64,000 nucleotides of DNA from Methanomassiliicoccaceae archaeon (lineage in GTDB: Archaea; Thermoplasmatota; Thermoplasmata; Methanomassiliicoccales; Methanomethylophilaceae): NCBI GenBank assembly GCA_003555025.1, contig PWHV01000011.1, positions 76,101 through 140,100 of the forward strand. The letters are read 5' to 3'. Positions within the stretch are counted from its first letter, which is position 1, and each line of letters starts with the position of its first letter. The notes beneath the pieces are model-generated. The model saw only the letters and a program-made list of their open reading frames with translations, did no database searches and was not told the DNA's origin. Made by a program: the position numbers and the translations under genes. Of this stretch, positions 26,980 to 36,442 are shown piece by piece.

Positions 26980-28228
26980 CGTCATCCTCCTCGAACACCG
27001 CCCCTATGGACCTCATCTGATTAAGGAACATGGGGTATGAGACCTGATGCTCCCCTTTGGAATCTATCTCGGTGACGCCGTCGGCGGAGAGCCCGGCCAC
27101 GAACGCGGCCATCATGATACGGTGGTCGCCATGGGTCTCCACCACGGCACCGCGCAAGCGTTTGCCGCCCCGTATCACGCAGCCATCGTCAGTGGCTTCG
27201 ATATCGGCTCCCATCGCTTTGAGCATGGCCACGGTGGTGGCTATCCTGTCGCTCTCCTTGAACCTCAGCTGACGGGCGTTGTGGAGTCTGCTCTCACCCT
27301 CGGCGTTGGCGGCCAATACGGCGACCGCCGGAAAAAGGTCCGGCACATCCCCCATGTCCACCCTGGCGCCATGGAGCTCTGACCGAGAAGCACTGGCCCG
27401 CTCCTCCCCCGTCTCAACATCGGCACCGAAGGACCGCAGTATGTCAAGTATCGCCTTGTCCCCCTGCAGGTCGTTAAGGTCCAGGCCGTTGACGGTGACG
27501 TCTCCGCACAGCGCCCCCGCCACCAGGGGGAAGGCCGCGGAGGAGAAGTCCCCCGGGACGCGGTAGTCGCAGGGATTATACCCCCCGCCCTCGACCACGA
27601 AGCATCCGTTCCTCTTGGCCACATTGCATCCGAAACGGCGCATCAGGTCCATGGTGATGTCCACGTAAGGGCGTGAGGAGATGGCGCCGAGGACCTCCAC
27701 CTCCATTCCCTCGTCCCTCAGCCCGCCCGCCATCAACAGCGAGCTGATGTACTGGGAGCTCATGTCGCCCCTGATGGAGGCCCTGTGGCCGGTCAGAGGC
27801 CCCTCCACCGTGACCGGGGGCCTGCCGCCACTCGAGAGGCAGCGGGCGCCCAGGGACTCCAGGCAGTCCAGCAACGGACCCATGGGCCTGCTGCGCAAGG
27901 ATCCGTCCCCGTCTATCACCGTGCGATGGGGAAAAAGGGAGGCGAGTCCGGCGAGCAACCGAAGCGTCGTGCCTGAATTCCCCACGTCGACCTCGCCCCC
28001 CTGGCCTTCCAGACCACCTTCTATCACCAGCGCCGTGTCATCGCGCTCGATTCTGGCGCCCATATGCTCCATGGCGCGGCAGGAGGCCATGGTGTCGGCG
28101 GACAGCAGAGGGGCGCCGACGACGGAGCGCCCCTCGGCCATCGCCGCCATGAAGACAGCGCGGTGGGTGTGGCTTTTGGATGGTGCTGCTCGCACCTCGC
28201 CGCCGAGCTCGCTGCGGCGGACCCTCAC
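26963..28228 (-). CDS. aroA: 3-phosphoshikimate 1-carboxyvinyltransferase (EPSP synthase)
   Basis: A 421-residue EPSP synthase, sixth step of the shikimate pathway. Visible blocks are the N-terminal APSKSHTHRAVFMAAMAEG, VGNSGTTLRLLAGLAS, DGDGSLRSRPMGPLLDCLESLGA, SSQYISSLLMAGG, PGDFSSAAFPLVAGAL, the RFKESDRIA signature and GDHRIMMAAFVAGL. The start overlaps the aroK stop as ATGA, so translation is coupled. Confidence 0.96.
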   Translation of the reverse strand: MRVRRSELGGEVRAAPSKSHTHRAVFMAAMAEGRSVVGAPLLSADTMASCRAMEHMGARIERDDTALVIEGGLEGQGGEVDVGNSGTTLRLLAGLASLFPHRTVIDGDGSLRSRPMGPLLDCLESLGARCLSSGGRPPVTVEGPLTGHRASIRGDMSSQYISSLLMAGGLRDEGMEVEVLGAISSRPYVDITMDLMRRFGCNVAKRNGCFVVEGGGYNPCDYRVPGDFSSAAFPLVAGALCGDVTVNGLDLNDLQGDKAILDILRSFGADVETGEERASASRSELHGARVDMGDVPDLFPAVAVLAANAEGESRLHNARQLRFKESDRIATTVAMLKAMGADIEATDDGCVIRGGKRLRGAVVETHGDHRIMMAAFVAGLSADGVTEIDSKGEHQVSYPMFLNQMRSIGAVFEEDDDEQHG

Positions 28229-29058
28229 TCCTTCACACCCCTGAGGTGGCTGAGGATGAAGCGTCCACGGCCCTCTTCCAGTATCAGCTCCTTGCAGAGG
28301 CTCTCATCGGCGATCACCGCCACCGCCGGGCCGGTGCCGCTCATGCCCGCCGCCGCCGCGCCCTTTTCGAGCGCTCGGCGGGCCAGACCGTCGTCCGCCC
28401 CGACCAGCTCCGCCACCAGCCTGCCGTTCTCGGACATGGCGTCGAACGGGTCGGTGGCGCTGCGCTCTATCAGCCTCTCGAAGTCCTCCCGCCTACGGCG
28501 GAAGGCCTCTATGTCGAGGGTGTTCTTCTCGATGCGCTCCTCGGGCACATGCAGCAGCACCGAATGCTCGCCCACGCTCGGCACCATGGACTCGATGTGC
28601 ATCCTCACGTTGTCCGTGACCACCAGGCCTCCGAAGTGGCAGCCGCATGCATCATCGAACGCCCCGGTGACGGAGACGCCGGCATCGATGGAGCTGTGGC
28701 ATCCTATCCTCACGGCCTCCAGCTCGTCCATCGTTCCGCCGTGGGCGTCGTTCACCGCCAGGCAGACGGCGTTCGCAGCGGAGCTGGAACTCTTCAACCC
28801 ACGAGAGACGGGTATCTCCGACCAAATCTTCAGGGTGCCGGCGCAAGGAAGGCCCAACGCCTCGTGCATCCTTTTGGCGCAGATCCTAGCCAGCCTGTCG
28901 TCGGTCCTGTCCCCTCCTTCCACCTCGATCCTGAGCTCCCCGCCTCCGGGGTCGAAGGCGGCCACCGTCTTCAGGTCGATGCCGAGCGTCGCCCCCTTCC
29001 CGCAAGGGATGGCGTTAACAACCGTGACAGCTCCGAACGACTCTCCCCAACCGCTCAT
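28225..29058 (-). CDS. aroK: Archaeal shikimate kinase (GHMP family)
   Basis: A 277-residue kinase of the GHMP superfamily, the archaeal replacement for bacterial AroK. Motifs: N-terminal GAVTVVNAIPCGKGATLGID, the phosphate-binding PVSRGLKSSSSAANAV, and the C-terminal GMSGTGPAVAVIA. The open frame extends 121 codons upstream into aroDE in another frame, but the Met of MSGWGESFG at 29058 overlaps the aroDE stop as ATGA and is the family start. Confidence 0.94.
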   Translation of the reverse strand: MSGWGESFGAVTVVNAIPCGKGATLGIDLKTVAAFDPGGGELRIEVEGGDRTDDRLARICAKRMHEALGLPCAGTLKIWSEIPVSRGLKSSSSAANAVCLAVNDAHGGTMDELEAVRIGCHSSIDAGVSVTGAFDDACGCHFGGLVVTDNVRMHIESMVPSVGEHSVLLHVPEERIEKNTLDIEAFRRRREDFERLIERSATDPFDAMSENGRLVAELVGADDGLARRALEKGAAAAGMSGTGPAVAVIADESLCKELILEEGRGRFILSHLRGVKE

Positions 29059-30398
29059 AGCGCCGCCTCCATCATAACGTCCTTGGACACCTCTATTCCG
29101 GTCCAAATGCGGAACGAGGCCATGGCCTGATGCACCAGCATCTCCAACCCTTCTATCGTCATCGCCCCTCTGGCGGACGCCTCGCGGATGAGGGGCGTCT
29201 CGCGGGGGCGGTACACCATGTCGAACACCGTGTGCCTTTCGTCGAGGAGGTCCACATCCAATGGTGCGAGCGAAGGATACCCCTCCATCCCCAGAGGGGT
29301 GCAGTTGACGATCAGGTCGAAGCGTTCCAGGTTCCGCGGGACGCCCGCCGCGGAGCATCCGTACCGCTGCGCCAAAGCCTCCGCCTTCGACATGTCCCGG
29401 TTGCTCACCGTAACGCCGCAACCTTCGGACTGGAGAGCGTAACAGCAGGCCATGGCCGCGCCGCCCGCTCCCAGCACCAGGGCCTCGGAGCCGGCGATGG
29501 TGACGCCGGCCTCGGCCAAAGCCTCCTTCACCCCCAGCACATCGGTGTTGTAACCCACCAGCCTGCCGTCCTCTTTGCTTATGGTGTTCACCGCCCCCAC
29601 GGCGGCGGCGGACGCGTCCAGGGCGTCCAGGTGCGCCAAGGCCTCCACCTTGTACGGTATCGTGACATTGAGCCCGCGGACATCGTAGAACTTCATGAAA
29701 GCCGCCAGGCCGTCCAGTCCGGGGGTATCGAACCGCATGTATCTGCCGGCAAGGCCCGCCGCCTCCATGGCGGCGCGGTGCATCGCCGGCGAGGAGCTGT
29801 GCCCCAGCGGCCGTCCCACTATCCCCAGCAACAGCGGGTCGCCCCCCATCCTCCTCATCTCCTGCACGGACATCTGCCCCGGGGCGGTGGCCTTGCCGGC
29901 ATGGGCGAAGGTGAACTCGTTCCCCAAGAGCCGTGACCTCGCCCGGGTGATCGCACCCAGATCTCCCATGCCCAGTATAACGTGCCTTCCCGCGATGAGG
30001 TCGGCGGCCTGTTTTATGCTCACCAGGTCCCGGAGGGAATTCACCATGAACGCGCCTTTGCGCAGCTCGCAGCGCATGCCGCCCATCAAGCGGATGATGC
30101 CCTCCCAGTCCGGAGTGCGCTCCCAGTCGTGATGGGACGCTATGGTCATGGTATCATCGATATCGTCGCATTCCTCGCCGACGTCGATTAGTGAGGCGCC
30201 GGCGGCCGCCGCCCATGCGGCCGCCTCCCTCCTGTCCGTGTCCCTCAGGTCGCCCAGGGTGGCTATGAAGGGCTTGGCCGGCAGAGGCTCCACCGGCCAT
30301 CCTAGCCGGTCCAGCCTGAGCTCGGCCATGTCCGCCATTAGCATCGCGTCCGATTCCAGATCCTCGACGCGGCCCACTGATAGGCAGATGCGGGTCAT
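29055..30398 (-). CDS. aroDE: Fused 3-dehydroquinate dehydratase-shikimate dehydrogenase
   Basis: A 447-residue bifunctional enzyme. Residues 1-185 are type I dehydroquinase: AELRLDRLGW with the substrate-binding EhR-like pair, ASHHDWERTP with the catalytic His, ELRKGAFMVN with the Schiff-base Lys, and GDLGAITRA. Residues 190-447 are AroE: GIVGRPLGHSSSPAMHRAAM, GLNVTIPYKVEAL with its catalytic Lys, GAVNTISKEDGRLVGYNTD, the NADP site VLGAGGAAMACCYAL, and GLEMLVHQAMASF. Fusion of these consecutive activities is known in some lineages. The start overlaps the aroB' stop by four bases. Confidence 0.93.
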   Translation of the reverse strand: MTRICLSVGRVEDLESDAMLMADMAELRLDRLGWPVEPLPAKPFIATLGDLRDTDRREAAAWAAAAGASLIDVGEECDDIDDTMTIASHHDWERTPDWEGIIRLMGGMRCELRKGAFMVNSLRDLVSIKQAADLIAGRHVILGMGDLGAITRARSRLLGNEFTFAHAGKATAPGQMSVQEMRRMGGDPLLLGIVGRPLGHSSSPAMHRAAMEAAGLAGRYMRFDTPGLDGLAAFMKFYDVRGLNVTIPYKVEALAHLDALDASAAAVGAVNTISKEDGRLVGYNTDVLGVKEALAEAGVTIAGSEALVLGAGGAAMACCYALQSEGCGVTVSNRDMSKAEALAQRYGCSAAGVPRNLERFDLIVNCTPLGMEGYPSLAPLDVDLLDERHTVFDMVYRPRETPLIREASARGAMTIEGLEMLVHQAMASFRIWTGIEVSKDVMMEAAL

Positions 30399-31408
30399 GT
30401 CTCCCTTATGGTCTCATCGACGCTCATGCCGAAATGCCTTCCGCCCTCCGACACCGCACCGAGTACCTTGTCACCCGCTTGCAGATCGCTGACGGAGATG
30501 GAGCCGTCGGGACCTATCAGTTTTACCGTCTCCGCGTTCTGGACGACGGCGCTGAACCGCCTCCCGTCATGCTCCAGCTCCAGCAGCAGCATGGGTCTGC
30601 TCTCGGTCTTGCAGCGTCCCACCACCGAGCGTCTGGCGCCGCCGTCGGCGCCGACGACGAGGACCTCATCGCCGCTCTTGAGCTCGGACAGGTACCTGGT
30701 CTTGCCCCCCGGCGTCATGACGTAGGCGTGCACCGCCCCGGCGTTGACGCGGAACGGCCGCGAGGCCACGTAGCCGCTCTCCTCGCTCTCCGATTGGACC
30801 AGCAGCATGCAGGCCGACTGCGAGCCGATGAGCATCCCCTCCCCTGGCACCATGATGTTGCAGGTGTCCACGCAGACCCGGTCCGCCAACGGCAGTTTCC
30901 TCACCTCTTTGACGCTGACCGCCTGCAGCTCCACCGAACTCTCTTCCTGCAGCAAGGACGCAATCGCATCATCGCTCCAGGCCTCCGGTTCGAGGAGCAC
31001 CGCGTCCACCCCTCCCTCCAGGGTCTGGAGGAAGAGCCTCGCCTCGCCGACGCTGTCGGCGGTGGCTAGTAGGCGGGAGCCGCTGCCTTGGAACGCGGCC
31101 ACGAGATTCTCCACGGGTATGACCTTCCAATCGGTGGTGCTGACCACGAAGGACCCTATTCCTGCGGAGGCCATCACCTCCGCCATACCCTCGGGATCAT
31201 CCACGGAGACGATGCGCAGCTCGCCCCACGGCGAGCGGATGCCATCGCCGTCGCGGAAATGCAATGTCATCTTCCCCAGGCTTTCGAAGTGCTCGTCGCC
31301 CTCGCGCACCACTATGTCCTCGATGCCCTTCTCCAGCGCGCCGGTGACCAGGCTCTTCCTGTCATCGGCGGAATCGGGAAGGTCCGCCCGCGCCCATATG
31401 CGTCCCAT
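30395..31408 (-). CDS. aroB': 3-dehydroquinate synthase II
   Basis: A 337-residue archaeal dehydroquinate synthase that oxidatively deaminates and cyclises the ADH product, replacing bacterial AroB. Recognised by the start RIWARADLPDSADDRKSLVTGALEKGIEDIVV and the block DTCNIMVPGEGMLIGSQSACMLLVQSESEESGYVASRPFRVNAGAVHAYVMTPGGKTRYLSELKSGDEVLVV. It begins inside the 3' end of aroA' with an overlap of 47 bases, and the family-typical N-terminus shows the overlap is real. Confidence 0.94.
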   Translation of the reverse strand: MGRIWARADLPDSADDRKSLVTGALEKGIEDIVVREGDEHFESLGKMTLHFRDGDGIRSPWGELRIVSVDDPEGMAEVMASAGIGSFVVSTTDWKVIPVENLVAAFQGSGSRLLATADSVGEARLFLQTLEGGVDAVLLEPEAWSDDAIASLLQEESSVELQAVSVKEVRKLPLADRVCVDTCNIMVPGEGMLIGSQSACMLLVQSESEESGYVASRPFRVNAGAVHAYVMTPGGKTRYLSELKSGDEVLVVGADGGARRSVVGRCKTESRPMLLLELEHDGRRFSAVVQNAETVKLIGPDGSISVSDLQAGDKVLGAVSEGGRHFGMSVDETIRET

Positions 31409-32204
31409 GGTATCCCTCCAGCAGCTTCATGGCCTCTTCCACGTCGGCGCCGTGGAGGACCATCTTGGATATCGCTTTGGTCATCCCTTCAACGTTGCGG
31501 TGCTGGAACACGTTGCGTCCGATGGAGACTCCCTTTCCGCCGGCATCCAAGGACTCCCCCACGATGGTGAGGAGCTCCTTGTCGGAGGACACCTTGGGCC
31601 CGCCGGCGATCACCACCGGCGCCATGGATCCCCTGACGACCTCACGGAAGCTGTCCGGGTCGCCGGTGTAATTGGTCTTGACGAGGTCCGCCCCCAGCTC
31701 CACCGCCACCCGGGCGGAGTGCTTCACCAGGTCCACATCGAACGGGTCCTTTATCCCCGGACCGCGGGGGTAGGCCATGGCCAGCAGGGGCATGCCCCAC
31801 TCCATGCATTTGCGGGAGACGCCGCCGATGTCATGGAGCATGGCCGGCTCGGTGTCGGAGCCGATGTTCAGATGCACCGACACCGCGTCGGCGCCCAGTT
31901 TTATACCCTCCTCCACGTTGGCCACCAGCACCTTTTCGTCGGAGGTGGTGCCCATGTTGGTGGACGCTGAGAGGTGGAGTATGAGACCGATGTCGTGGCC
32001 GCTGCTGCGATGGCCGTAGGGGACGATTCCCTTGTGCATGACCACTGCGGTGGCCCCTCCCCTGGATATGCCGTCTATGGTGTGGCGCATATCGGTGAGG
32101 CCCTCTATGGGACCGACGGACATGCCGTGGTCAACGGGTATTATCACCGCGTTTCCTGAGTTGCGGTCGATAATCCTCTCCATGCGGATCTGCTTTCCGA
32201 ACAT
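31362..32204 (-). CDS. aroA': 2-amino-3,7-dideoxy-D-threo-hept-6-ulosonate synthase
   Basis: A 280-residue class I aldolase that condenses 6-deoxy-5-ketofructose 1-phosphate with aspartate semialdehyde, the archaeal entry to aromatics. Marks: MERIIDRNSGNAVIIPVDHGMSVGP, VSVHLNIGS, ADLVKTNYTGD with the Schiff-base Lys, VVIAGGPKVSS and GVSIGRNVFQHRN. First gene of the seven-gene operon, with a TATA box on the minus strand at 32241-32250. I start at the Met of MFGKQIRM; a Met nine codons upstream would leave almost no leader. Confidence 0.94.
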   Translation of the reverse strand: MFGKQIRMERIIDRNSGNAVIIPVDHGMSVGPIEGLTDMRHTIDGISRGGATAVVMHKGIVPYGHRSSGHDIGLILHLSASTNMGTTSDEKVLVANVEEGIKLGADAVSVHLNIGSDTEPAMLHDIGGVSRKCMEWGMPLLAMAYPRGPGIKDPFDVDLVKHSARVAVELGADLVKTNYTGDPDSFREVVRGSMAPVVIAGGPKVSSDKELLTIVGESLDAGGKGVSIGRNVFQHRNVEGMTKAISKMVLHGADVEEAMKLLEGYHGTHMGAGGPSRFRR

Positions 32205-32240
32205 CTGATCCCTCGTGATACGTGCTAACACATGACACGG

Positions 32241-32328: not shown

Positions 32329-32405
32329 GGGCCAATAGATCAGCTCGGAAGATCGCCTGCTTTGCAAGCAGGAGGGCGCGGGTTCAAATCCCGCTTGGTC
32401 CACCA
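32329..32405 (+). tRNA. tRNA-Ala (anticodon TGC)
   Basis: A 77-base cloverleaf: acceptor GGGCCAA pairs with TTGGTCC, discriminator A and encoded CCA; the anticodon stem CCTGC/GCAGG encloses loop TTTGCAA with anticodon TGC; the T arm is GCGGGTTCAAATCCCGC. A TATA-like TATTTATTG lies about 35 bases upstream. Confidence 0.94.
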
Positions 32406-32730: not shown

Positions 32731-32733
32731 GTG

Positions 32734-33424
32734 ATGTGTGGTTTGCAGGAGGATGCTAAGGAGGTTTTGATCGCCACCGTACCCTTGTTGCTTTCGGTGC
32801 TAATTGCAAAGGCGGCATTCCTCCAGAGCAGCCTTGGCGATATTCTCATATATCTGGCGTCATCGGTGATGCTGATAGCCGGATTCTTCTTTTTCATCAT
32901 CGGAGTCCGGCGGGATACAACCTATCGGCGAGGCAATGGGTTCAGAGATGGTCCAGCATGGCAGTCTGCCAGTGGTCGCCGTGACCGTGTTCGTTTTCAT
33001 TCTGGTCATCACAATGGCCGAACCCTCCTTGGCCGTGTTCACAAGCGCTGTCGCTTCGGTGGTCGAGAACGACCTTATCTCAACATATCTGATGATGGTG
33101 ATACCCGTCAGTGCCGCCATCCTCGTCGTTGTGTCGGTGTTCCGTGTGCTCTTGGGGATAAGCATGAAGAAGTTACTCATGGTCGGATACGGGGCGATAA
33201 TAGTCCTATCCCTACTCGTGCCCACTGATTTCCTGGCATTGGCCTATGACTCCGGAGGGGCAGCCGCCGGGGCGCTGGTTCTGCCGGTGATATTGTCCTT
33301 CGGAGTGGGTATGAGCTCCGTTCTGTCTGATAGGACTGACCTCTCCGATGTGTTCGGTTACATAGCATTGGCGACGATGGGTCCGATACTGGGCGTATTG
33401 CTCATGGGGGTGCTTCTGTTTTGA
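32734..33424 (+). pseudogene. DUF1538 membrane protein, first subunit, frameshifted
   Basis: The gene encodes a DUF1538-type protein of about 230 residues. It starts MCGLQEDAKEVLIATVPLLLSVLIAKAAF and has about six hydrophobic segments, including SVMLIAGFFFFIIGV, SLPVVAVTVFVFILVITMAEP, YLMMVIPVSAAILVVVSVF and the YDSGGAAAGALVLPVILSFGVG block repeated in the second subunit. One extra base near 32908-32914 (CGGCGGGA) breaks the frame: upstream ends at IIGVRR, downstream resumes GIQPIGEAMGSEMVQHG. The second gene starts within its stop (TTGA). It could be a true frameshift mutation, a sequence error, or recoding. Confidence 0.7.
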
Positions 33425-34149
33425 ACGCCGAACTCTCCATCCTCTACGATACCGCAGTGGAGGTTTCGTTGATGGTGCTGCCCGTTCTGGCTTTCTTCCT
33501 GCTCTTCCAATTCTTCTTCCTTGGATACCCAAGGGTGACATTCAATAGGATAATGGTGAACCTCTTACTGGCGACCCTCGGCATATTCCTGTTCCTTGGA
33601 GGGGTGTATATGGGACTGATGCCGGCCGCCCAATCCATCGGCGAGTACGTGGGTAGCAATCTTCAAAGATGGTACCTGCCCCTGATGGGAGCTGTCGTCG
33701 GATTCCTGGCCACATTCGCTGAGCCTACGGTTAGGCTTTTGTCCGACCAGGTGGACCGCAGCTCCTCCGGCTATCTTCCATCCAAGGTCCTCGTGCTGGT
33801 GATATCATTGGGCGTGGCCTTCACGGTCGCATTGGGGATGGCGCGTATAGCCTATGGCTGGGACTTCATTTATATCATCGTACCCGGATACCTACTGGCG
33901 ATGATGTTTATGTGGAGGACCAGCCCCAAGTTCGTTTCAATGGCGTTCGATTCCGGAGGGATGGTGACCGGACCTCTGGCGGTGTTCATAGTGATGTCAA
34001 TGGCCATCGGAGCCGCCTCAGGGATAGAGGGGGCTTCCCCGATAAGGGATGGTTTCGGGATGATAGCGATGATCGCGCTTGCGCCGTTGAAATCAATATC
34101 TGCGCTTGGTAACCATCTTACGATGAAGGAGGGAGAGTATGATAATTGA
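33421..34149 (+). CDS. DUF1538 membrane protein, second subunit
   Basis: A 242-residue intact integral membrane protein with about seven hydrophobic segments. It repeats the plan of the preceding gene: AEPTVRLLSDQVD matches the AEPSLAVFTSAV block, and FDSGGMVTGPLAVFIVMSMAIG matches YDSGGAAAGALVLP. The paired DSGG re-entrant-like motifs suggest a two-domain transport or channel protein made of two related halves. DUF1538 has no proven function. The start is TTG at 33421 overlapping the previous stop; the end overlaps the P-II-like gene by 11 bases, so all three genes are coupled. Confidence 0.8.
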   Translation: MNAELSILYDTAVEVSLMVLPVLAFFLLFQFFFLGYPRVTFNRIMVNLLLATLGIFLFLGGVYMGLMPAAQSIGEYVGSNLQRWYLPLMGAVVGFLATFAEPTVRLLSDQVDRSSSGYLPSKVLVLVISLGVAFTVALGMARIAYGWDFIYIIVPGYLLAMMFMWRTSPKFVSMAFDSGGMVTGPLAVFIVMSMAIGAASGIEGASPIRDGFGMIAMIALAPLKSISALGNHLTMKEGEYDN

Positions 34150-34547
34150 AGAAGATGTCGACATGATTCTCACAGTCGTCAGGAAAGGTTGGGCTGAATC
34201 TGTTTTCCATGCTGCCATCGAGGCAGGTGCGAGAGGGGGGCACCATATTCCACGGCCGAGGGACCAGTACAGATGAGTGGATGATATTCTTGGGCGTTCT
34301 TGTAGAGCCTGAAAAGGAAGTGGTCCTAACCGTCGTACCACGGGACATCAGCAGGGAAGTGCTAATTAGTATAAGCAAGGCCGCCGAACTGGAGAAGACC
34401 GGAAACGGCATATCCGTGGTATGGCCATTGTCTATGGCTGTGGGAAGGGTCGAAAAAATCCCCACAGCCGATGGACGGGACGCCCTCGAAAGGCAAGAAG
34501 AAGTGAGGAACATGACGGGGCCTAACCGCGACCCATCAGAGAAATGA
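34139..34547 (+). pseudogene. P-II-like regulator, frameshifted in a G6 run
   Basis: The first frame encodes MIIEEDVDMILTVVRKGWAE and SVFHAAIEAGARGG. A single extra G in the run at 34235-34240 (GAGAGGGGGGCACC) takes it out of frame. Removing one G joins it to GTIFHGRGTSTDEWMIFLGV, then EPEKEVVLTVVPRD and AELEKTGNGISVVWPLSMAVGRVE, giving a P-II (GlnB) fold: trimeric core strands, a T-loop region after GARGG, and the GxGI-WP-VGR C-terminal block. P-II proteins sense nitrogen or energy metabolites and bind membrane transporters, so regulation of the DUF1538 pair is a reasonable inference. Confidence 0.7.
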
Positions 34548-34595
34548 AACAGTAGAGGATGGAGAGTAAGCATATGCGGCCAAGGGGAAACAACG

Positions 34596-34883
34596 ATGGC
34601 CTCCATGTGCCAGCCCAAATTGGAGGTCGTCCGATCCCCGCCGGTATGGGACGACGTCAATGCCTGGAAGGCGACCGCTCGGGACGCGCTCTTCACCGAG
34701 GATGGTTTTCAGTGATCGGATGCCCGGAGGATCCTGGTCGCCAACTGCCACGCCGCTGTGGCGCGGTCCCCGCTCTACGGCCGCTCGTTGGCTCTCATCC
34801 GGTCGCCGCCGGGATGGGACGACCTCCACGCATGGAAAGAAAAGGTCCAAAGGGCCCTTATATCGGGGCCCCAGGGACGGTAA
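34596..34883 (+). pseudogene. Broken gene with a repeated RSPPxWDD motif
   Basis: One frame of 96 codons, interrupted only by TGA at 34713-34715, encodes VRSPPVWDDVNAWKATARDA before the stop and IRSPPGWDDLHAWKEKVQRA near its end. The two motifs are about 60 codons apart and diverged, so the DNA holds an internal duplication. Between them lies ARRILVANCHAAVARSPLYG. The unbroken character of the frame favours a once-real protein. Its 3' end overlaps the convergent amiS gene. No family is recognised. Confidence 0.4.
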
Positions 34884-35370
34884 GTATGTAGTAGGCGTAG
34901 ACGCCGGTTATGATGGCCACCGCCATCGTGGACCACGCGGCCAGCTTCTTTATCTCCAGGCGCAGGCCCATGAGCAGGAAGAACACGAACCACAGGTACG
35001 CCCACACCGCCCATATCACCGCCAGCACCGCCAGCTTGTCCACCATGAAGGTGTAGGCGGCGGTGGGGGCGGCGGTCACCGCCACGAAGAGGCAGTAGAA
35101 GCCCAGTGCCCGGTTGTCGTCTATCCCCCACCAGAAGGCCACGAACAGCCAAAGGTAGGTGAAGGAGAACAGCAGGGTCTGGGCGGCGGCGAACGCCGAT
35201 TCCATCACGAAGACGAAATAGGCGGCGTTCAGGAACGTCAGCGCTCCCGCGAACAGGTTGATAACCGCCGTGTCCTTGGCGGTGGCGTAGCCCATGATGT
35301 AGAGCGCGTTGACGAAGAGCACCGCGCCCACGTACAGCAGGCCGAGTCCGAGCAGGTTGGGGTCCGACAT
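34858..35370 (-). CDS. amiS: AmiS/UreI family amide or urea channel
   Basis: A 170-residue membrane protein with six predicted helices, the usual size of AmiS/UreI. It starts MSDPNLLGLGLLYVGAVLFVNALYIMG and contains the FLNAAYFVFV, LLFSFTYLWLFVAFWWG and WAVWAYLWFVFFLLMGLRLEIKK blocks typical of the family, which form proton-gated channels for urea or short-chain amides. It follows amiE by 40 bases on the same strand, so it probably admits the amide substrate or releases products. Confidence 0.9.
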   Translation of the reverse strand: MSDPNLLGLGLLYVGAVLFVNALYIMGYATAKDTAVINLFAGALTFLNAAYFVFVMESAFAAAQTLLFSFTYLWLFVAFWWGIDDNRALGFYCLFVAVTAAPTAAYTFMVDKLAVLAVIWAVWAYLWFVFFLLMGLRLEIKKLAAWSTMAVAIITGVYAYYILTVPGAPI

Positions 35371-35410
35371 TCGCTCCCTCCTTGGAAAAAAAAGGAGAGG
35401 GGTTGAGCCC

Positions 35411-36442
35411 CTACTTGCTCCTGATCCCCGGCACAGGGCACTCGTCGGTCCCCGGCGTCGACCTGGTCACCTTCTCTATCTGCTTCCTCGCCTTGGCCGG
35501 GTCCTGGATCCAGTCCTTGTAGAAGTCGAAGGGGCATTCGACGTGCCCCTCCTTCTCCCCGGCGGCGAGCTCGGCGGTGTAGCCGCGGTGAAGCAGCTTG
35601 TAGAGATGGTTCTGGCTCTGCCAGTTCTTGCGCGCGTCCCTTATCGCCGAAACGGAGAGCTCGGCGTACTGGTTCTCCATCTCGTTGGTCTCCGTCTCCC
35701 CCAGCACGCGGCCGTCGAAGCCGATGATGGCGGAGTGGCCGAAGAACGAGTACGCCCCGTCATGGCCGGCCATGTTGGCCACCGCCACGTAGCTGGTGTT
35801 CTGCCAGGCGGCGGCGCGGGCATTGATGCACTGCTGCTCCTTGGACGGGTACATGTACCCTTGGCACCGGATTATGAGCTCGGCGCCCTTGTAGGCGCAG
35901 TCCCTCCATATCTCCGGGTAGTTGCCGTCGTCGCAGATTATGAGGCTGGTCTTCAGCCCCTTGGGCCCGTCGGAAACATAGGTCTTGTGCGCCGCCGTCC
36001 ACCCCTCGATGGGGCACCACGGCATTATCTTGCGGTACTGCTGCACGATCTCCCCGTTGTCGTCGATGAGTATCAACGTGTTGTAGGGGTGCCTGTTCGG
36101 ATGGTCCTCATGCAGCTCCCCGGTGATGGAGAACACCCCCCAGACGCCGTTGTCCTTGCACGCCTGGGCGAAGATGTCGGTCTCCGGTCCGGGGACCGTG
36201 GTGGAGAGGTCCATCATCTCGTTCTTGTCGTACAGGACGCCCTCGGTGCTGTACTCGGGGAAGATTATCAGGTCCAGGCCCGGGTGGCTGGCCTTCATCC
36301 CCTTGATGTAATCAGCGATCCCCTGGCAGTTCTCCATTATCTTGTCCTTGCCTCCAAGCCTCGGAAAGGTCTTGAGGGGCGGATAGTTGACAACCCCTAC
36401 CCCCACCGTGTCGTTGGAGGACGAGATATCGCCATGTCTCAT
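35411..36442 (-). CDS. amiE: Aliphatic amidase
   Basis: A 343-residue nitrilase-superfamily amidase hydrolysing short aliphatic amides to acid plus ammonia. The catalytic triad is visible: Glu in [10 protein letters not shown], Lys in [13 protein letters not shown], and Cys in [16 protein letters not shown]. The start [20 protein letters not shown] and the end [12 protein letters not shown] are close to bacterial AmiE such as that of Pseudomonas, and the length matches. Such similarity in an archaeon points to transfer from bacteria. The A/T-rich upstream region has TATA-like TATAAATAAC on the minus strand near 36510. Formamidase is a near relative and cannot be excluded. Confidence 0.93.

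Follow-up and report, generated by a model that had tools for sequence, protein, structure and literature searches.

A cluster of three overlapping genes on one contig of a Methanomassiliicoccaceae archaeon raises the question of whether a PII-like protein controls the pair of DUF1538 membrane proteins encoded beside it, and whether this copy of the system still works. In the window, by which we mean the whole 64,000-nucleotide stretch of DNA that was analysed, the cluster occupies positions 32731-34547 of the + strand in the order UmpA-type DUF1538, UmpB-type DUF1538 and PII-like gene (Table 1). The original prediction described two DUF1538 genes with DSGG segments followed by a PII-like gene; the gene types and their order stand, all on the + strand, but frameshifts in umpA and in the PII-like gene had been missed, and UmpB alone is intact. 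In a profile search, UmpB (33421-34149) scored 194.2 bits against PF07556 and the C-terminal piece of UmpA 143.5 bits over profile positions 44-211, both above the curated cut-off of 22.6 bits. The overlap is 4 nt between UmpA and UmpB and 11 nt between UmpB and the PII start. The PII-like gene carries one extra base in the G-run at 34235-34240, visible as a one-base gap against the sister genome; taken by itself, this frameshift may have arisen recently or reflect an error of sequencing. In the profile search, neither piece of the PII gene came up as Pfam P-II, and both match a PII subfamily model built from relatives. Near the operon, an Rfam search returned nothing except the tRNA and a promoter scan gave no excess over shuffled sequences, while the few terminator-like matches were left unused. 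On the - strand, a shikimate-pathway cluster lies upstream at 28225-32231 (GHMP kinase, fused dehydroquinase/shikimate dehydrogenase, 3-dehydroquinate synthase II and a DeoC/LacD-family aldolase), and just downstream of the operon, at 34858-36442, an AmiS/UreI-family channel gene stands beside one for a carbon-nitrogen hydrolase, like amide/urea uptake pairs.

Table 1. Features at and around the DUF1538-PII locus, in window coordinates.
Feature	Positions	Strand	Remark
tRNA-Ala (TGC)	32329..32405	+	Insertion-site landmark; marks the same site in five sister genomes
UmpA-type DUF1538, N-terminal piece, frame 1	32731..32910	+	Frame comparison against the intact UmpA of L005
umpA one-base frameshift	32908..32912	+	
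UmpA-type DUF1538, C-terminal piece, frame 2	32912..33424	+	PF07556 match
UmpB-type DUF1538, intact, 242 aa	33421..34149	+	PF07556 match
PII-like gene, N-terminal piece, in frame from ATG 34139	34139..34240	+	PII subfamily model
G-run (G6) holding the one-base frameshift of the PII-like gene	34235..34240	+	Against the intact sister copy
PII-like gene, C-terminal piece, frame of ORF 34209-34547	34242..34547	+	PII subfamily model
Gene remnant with in-frame TGA	34593..34880	+	Counterpart reads open in sister G005 (L148)

The window genome (G000; 1.41 Mb in 36 contigs, 97% complete) holds a second umpA-umpB-PII operon on contig C18, diverged from the window copy, and here all three reading frames are open, as they are not in the window. 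The next gene on C18, for a hydrogenase maturation protease (L005 3076-3579), overlaps the tail end of the intact PII. Intact operons of the C18 type are also present in five sister species and in one genome of another genus (G012), and in G014 a contig starts within a DUF1538 gene adjoining PII; in other genera of the family the two DUF1538 are fused into one protein of ~490 aa, and no PII lies close by. The UmpB of the window was matched in only 11 of 293 sampled genomes of its phylum, all 11 of them in its family, and in the tree it groups as sister with the C18-type clade of its genus, with a local support of 0.89 and a branch length of 0.96 substitutions/site. Its partner UmpA has the signature DxGGVTTGP changed to DSGGAAAGA, with the TTGP part gone; the [TS]GP of this signature is present in 58 of 62 UmpA. 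In the closest sister genome (G005), the same site beside tRNA-Ala has no DUF1538 gene and an intact, orphan PII, and an intact UmpAB is retained in trans. Since this sister keeps an orphan PII and no DUF1538 at the same site, we read the window copy as most likely a paralogue of the umpA-umpB-PII operon in decay, with the C18 copy as the working one. With two of its three genes frameshifted, the window copy is probably no working system, and the original prediction, which treated it as one, fails on this point. Two sister contigs that extend several kb past the tRNA (L149 and L151) gave no match to the operon sequence. In G005 the stretch after tRNA-Ala (L148 1-2869) holds, besides the orphan PII, genes that by sequence reading appear to code for an acetyltransferase and a PAP2-type phosphatase, and this gene content makes the site look like a gene-turnover spot. 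Another case of decay is a DUF1538 remnant with six internal stops (G882:C1:2161174-2161551), in a genome that lacks this PII type.

The frameshifts themselves admit two other readings. If both were sequencing or assembly errors, the operon would be a second working copy, with which the intact UmpB would agree, and a single-base indel in a G-run is a classic error type; the window PII pieces also show a dN/dS of ~0.05 against the G005 PII, a ratio obtained with dS saturated. Compared with the sister, however, we counted about one uncompensated single-base coding indel in 4.35 kb of flank, against two frameshifts in the 1.4 kb of the operon. The motif loss and long branch of the window proteins, the stop carried by the neighbouring remnant and the sister without a DUF1538 pair at this site likewise speak for decay, and we regard the error reading as unlikely. 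Between copies at C18, dS is ~0.4-0.6, less saturated than at the window site; as synonymous saturation between the window and G005 PII exceeds that of C18, the genes at the site may predate the species split or be partly exchanged. Programmed +1 frameshifting, by which the window locus would yield full-length UmpA and PII, could account for both shifts having the same direction and for one falling within a G6 run. We rejected this reading as very improbable indeed, since the same-site sister PII and the intact relatives are read without any shift.

A decaying copy in one genome leaves the association of the two families to be judged elsewhere, and the original prediction had named their linkage across genomes as its check. 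A scan of one genome per species yielded 80 DUF1538 loci across several groups of archaea and bacteria; they are the best matches to an archaeal query and not a random draw. PII-like domains lay directly downstream on the same strand at 74 of the 80 loci, a median of 23 nt from the DUF1538 stop; the six loci without PII comprise two at contig ends, three from Bacillaceae and one fused archaeal form. In the three Bacillaceae genomes (L043, L059 and L100) this PII is absent genome-wide, which, together with the fused archaeal forms that have none close by, indicates that the PII is dispensable. DUF1538 occurs in 126 of 398 Pseudomonadota genomes, where PII adjoined it at all of the 30 best-scoring loci and at 30 of 30 in a second sample, the two samples sharing some genomes. 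In the phylum of Enterococcus dispar (199 genomes), PII was found in 67 genomes and DUF1538 in 67, with both in 66; the discordant genomes are one with PII only and one with a broken DUF1538 only. This co-occurrence has a Fisher p of ~1e-50 when genomes are counted as independent despite their relatedness, and of 97 PII matches in the phylum, 91 have a listed DUF1538 match no more than 1.2 kb away. Plasmids follow the same order, with DUF1538 and then a 'P-II family nitrogen regulator' in all five records with annotated genes (six examined), and in a Bradyrhizobium genome of 8.4 Mb the PII model gives a single match, which adjoins DUF1538. The predicted linkage is thus borne out, and the recurrence of the three-gene order, intact on C18 and in many phyla, puts the observation far beyond chance. 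Moreover, these data show a PII-like subfamily dedicated to the DUF1538 transporter.

Two PII domains are present in 47 of the 74 linked loci, namely in 21 of 22 loci with fused DUF1538 versus 26 of 52 with split genes (L036-L115), a pattern that may reflect ancestry. Members of the subfamily were also found apart from DUF1538, on contig C13 of G928 and in G005. The intact member at L238 1471-1830 has no DUF1538 gene closer than 1.5 kb, although its genome carries the usual operon as well. In the open-access literature, to which our search was directed, only five papers mention DUF1538, and we found no statement of the DUF1538-PII linkage or study of this PII; the paper on UmpAB makes no mention of P-II or PII (PMC5484666). 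The parts are known and annotated separately.

What the membrane pair does is better documented than the original prediction assumed when it described DUF1538 as lacking an assigned function. UmpAB of Halomonas zhaodongensis was shown in 2017, with both subunits co-expressed, to be a heterodimeric Na+(Li+,K+)/H+ antiporter with a pH optimum of 9.0 (PMC5484666), and NCBIfam models exist for both subunits (NF041627/NF041628). For growth pH, DUF1538 also ranks among the 20 Pfam families that carry the most information (PMC13255231). The proposal that the two DUF1538 proteins act as one unit fared well, as UmpA and UmpB form a heterodimer by co-immunoprecipitation (PMC5484666) and single-chain fusions occur naturally; we found the homologous subunits paired either in one operon or in one fused chain. 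The window pair resembles that of Halomonas in its paired homologous membrane proteins of one family and its overlapping genes, and differs in its frameshifted umpA and in scores that match clearly and lie far below the equivalog cut-offs of 490 and 500 bits (NF041627/NF041628: 81.3/85.5 bits for the window UmpB and 106.5/95.5 bits for that of C18). Among the sampled genomes no Halomonas-type UmpA exceeded the NCBIfam cut-off; the best reached 416 bits, and PII was present at that locus.

To look at the fold, a fused archaeal DUF1538 of the same family was modelled (mean pLDDT 87.6, pTM 0.88). The conserved AEP and DxGG motifs fall at or beside helix breaks in the model, which would suit an ion carrier. 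In both halves, the acidic residues of these signatures (the E of AEP and the D of DxGG) hardly vary, if at all, across archaea and bacteria. An alignment of fused and split DUF1538 together (A4) seemed to assign both subunits to the C-terminal half; it was given up in favour of another (A6). Foldseek returned 305 weak matches to solved structures, none at E <= 0.001 and with TM-scores of at most 0.21 among the best 50, so we claim no structural relative; a sequence search of the PDB for DUF1538 gave no match at E up to 1.

The PII-like protein lies at the edge of its family, with Pfam P-II scores of 24.8 bits for the C18 protein and 28.2 bits for its Bradyrhizobium relative against a cut-off of 25 bits. 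The model of the C18 homologue has the PII fold, with a Foldseek E of 4.3e-6 to 3lf0, and resembles many GlnK. As in canonical PII (GlnB/GlnK, PF00543), several residues are mostly kept among the 126 PII-like domains, namely T29 in 105, G35 in 119, G87 in 96, G89 in 120 and F92 in 106. Unlike canonical PII, the residues that hold the triphosphate are replaced: the equivalent of K90 is I, L, V, M or A in all 126 domains, that of R101 is G in 119, and the R103 column has no dominant R. The column of K58, the residue for 2-oxoglutarate, has K or R in 123 of 126 domains in one alignment, in which gap placement is ambiguous. The T-loop, which begins with a conserved RGxGxHE loop, is ~5 residues shorter than the canonical one, and the equivalent of Y51 is absent, no Y being among the commonest residues in its column, so that canonical uridylylation residues are missing as well. 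A further difference from canonical PII is that bacterial DUF1538 operons often have two PII domains. With the triphosphate residues replaced, the T-loop short and Y51 missing, canonical sensing of ATP and 2-oxoglutarate appears unlikely from the sequence, as does a GlnK-style plug, though docking may occur by another route. Control in the form of AmtB-GlnK, as originally predicted, therefore finds no support in a PII that lacks Y51, K90, R101 and R103 and has a T-loop shortened by ~5 residues.

Taking the locus and its relatives together, we consider it rather probable that the second operon copy, the one in the window, is degenerating and that, in the intact module, a dedicated PII-like trimer binds and restrains the UmpAB antiporter. 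UmpA and UmpB would form one membrane cation/proton antiporter, as shown in Halomonas and by homology expected here, and the third gene supplies a PII-like member dedicated to UmpAB, as linkage and co-occurrence show. The trimer would dock on UmpAB from the cytoplasmic side, much as GlnK does on AmtB and SbtB on SbtA, and once bound it may keep the antiporter inactive or rate-limited until a signal is sensed. Linkage leaves binding unproven, and docking of PII on UmpAB is a step that we infer. PII-regulated transporters reportedly function as trimers (PMC10710835), and a trimeric UmpAB is hypothetical, which weighs against the scheme. Halomonas UmpAB was active from a 4.2 kb clone, and the ORFs listed for that fragment include no PII (PMC5484666), which argues against PII being needed for transport and makes inhibition likelier than activation. 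Because the triphosphate-holding residues are replaced, the signal would probably not be ATP plus 2-oxoglutarate in their canonical mode. As with SbtB, the first candidate ligand might be AMP or cAMP, nucleotides carrying fewer phosphates, a speculation prompted by T29, G87, G89 and F92 being largely kept. Like the GlnK-AmtB system, this one has a PII-fold gene adjoining a transporter gene and a proposed control by docking, but it involves another transporter family and a PII without the equivalents of Y51, K90, R101 and R103 and with a shorter T-loop. It shares with SbtB-SbtA a non-canonical PII-like partner dedicated to a secondary transporter, the transporter family again being different.

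Both ends of this scheme can be questioned. Antiport has been shown for one Halomonas pair only, and with archaeal scores so far under the equivalog cut-offs the substrate may differ; a single assayed family member leaves room for archaeal DUF1538 pairs that carry, under PII control, a cargo other than Na+/K+ against H+, such as a small metabolite. The near invariance of the E of AEP and the D of DxGG across archaea and bacteria in both halves weighs against such a cargo, which we think improbable. So does the setting of the genus, whose close relatives bear sample names with CSSed, which we take to mean soda-lake sediment, a place where an antiporter fits. Information might also flow the other way, with UmpAB as a membrane anchor that responds to ions or pH and sequesters a PII-like protein acting elsewhere, like GlnK on AmtB. 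Intact orphan PII genes without an adjoining DUF1538 in G005 and G928, together with the low dN/dS between the G005 orphan and the window pieces, would fit this direction, but the near-perfect co-occurrence of PII and DUF1538 does not, and since G005 has an intact UmpAB in trans, its orphan PII may still serve UmpAB. We hold this reversal to be quite improbable, and the restraint of the UmpAB antiporter by its PII-like partner remains our preferred reading.

Chances seem evenly balanced for the broader view, in which UmpAB is a three-component system whose cation/H+ antiporter has a fold without a solved relative and whose own PII-like subfamily has given up canonical sensing of triphosphate and 2-oxoglutarate for another signal. 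On that view the system occurs in several methanogen groups and, among the genomes sampled from two large bacterial phyla, in about one in three. What PII proteins are mainly known for is sensing nitrogen and carbon. If this picture is true, PII control would extend to pH and salt homeostasis in both prokaryotic domains, with gut Clostridia, enterococci and soda-lake methanogens among the carriers, and the sole biochemical study of UmpAB would have examined the transporter without its regulator. The module points to a widespread and unstudied way of switching an ion antiporter in archaea and in many bacteria.
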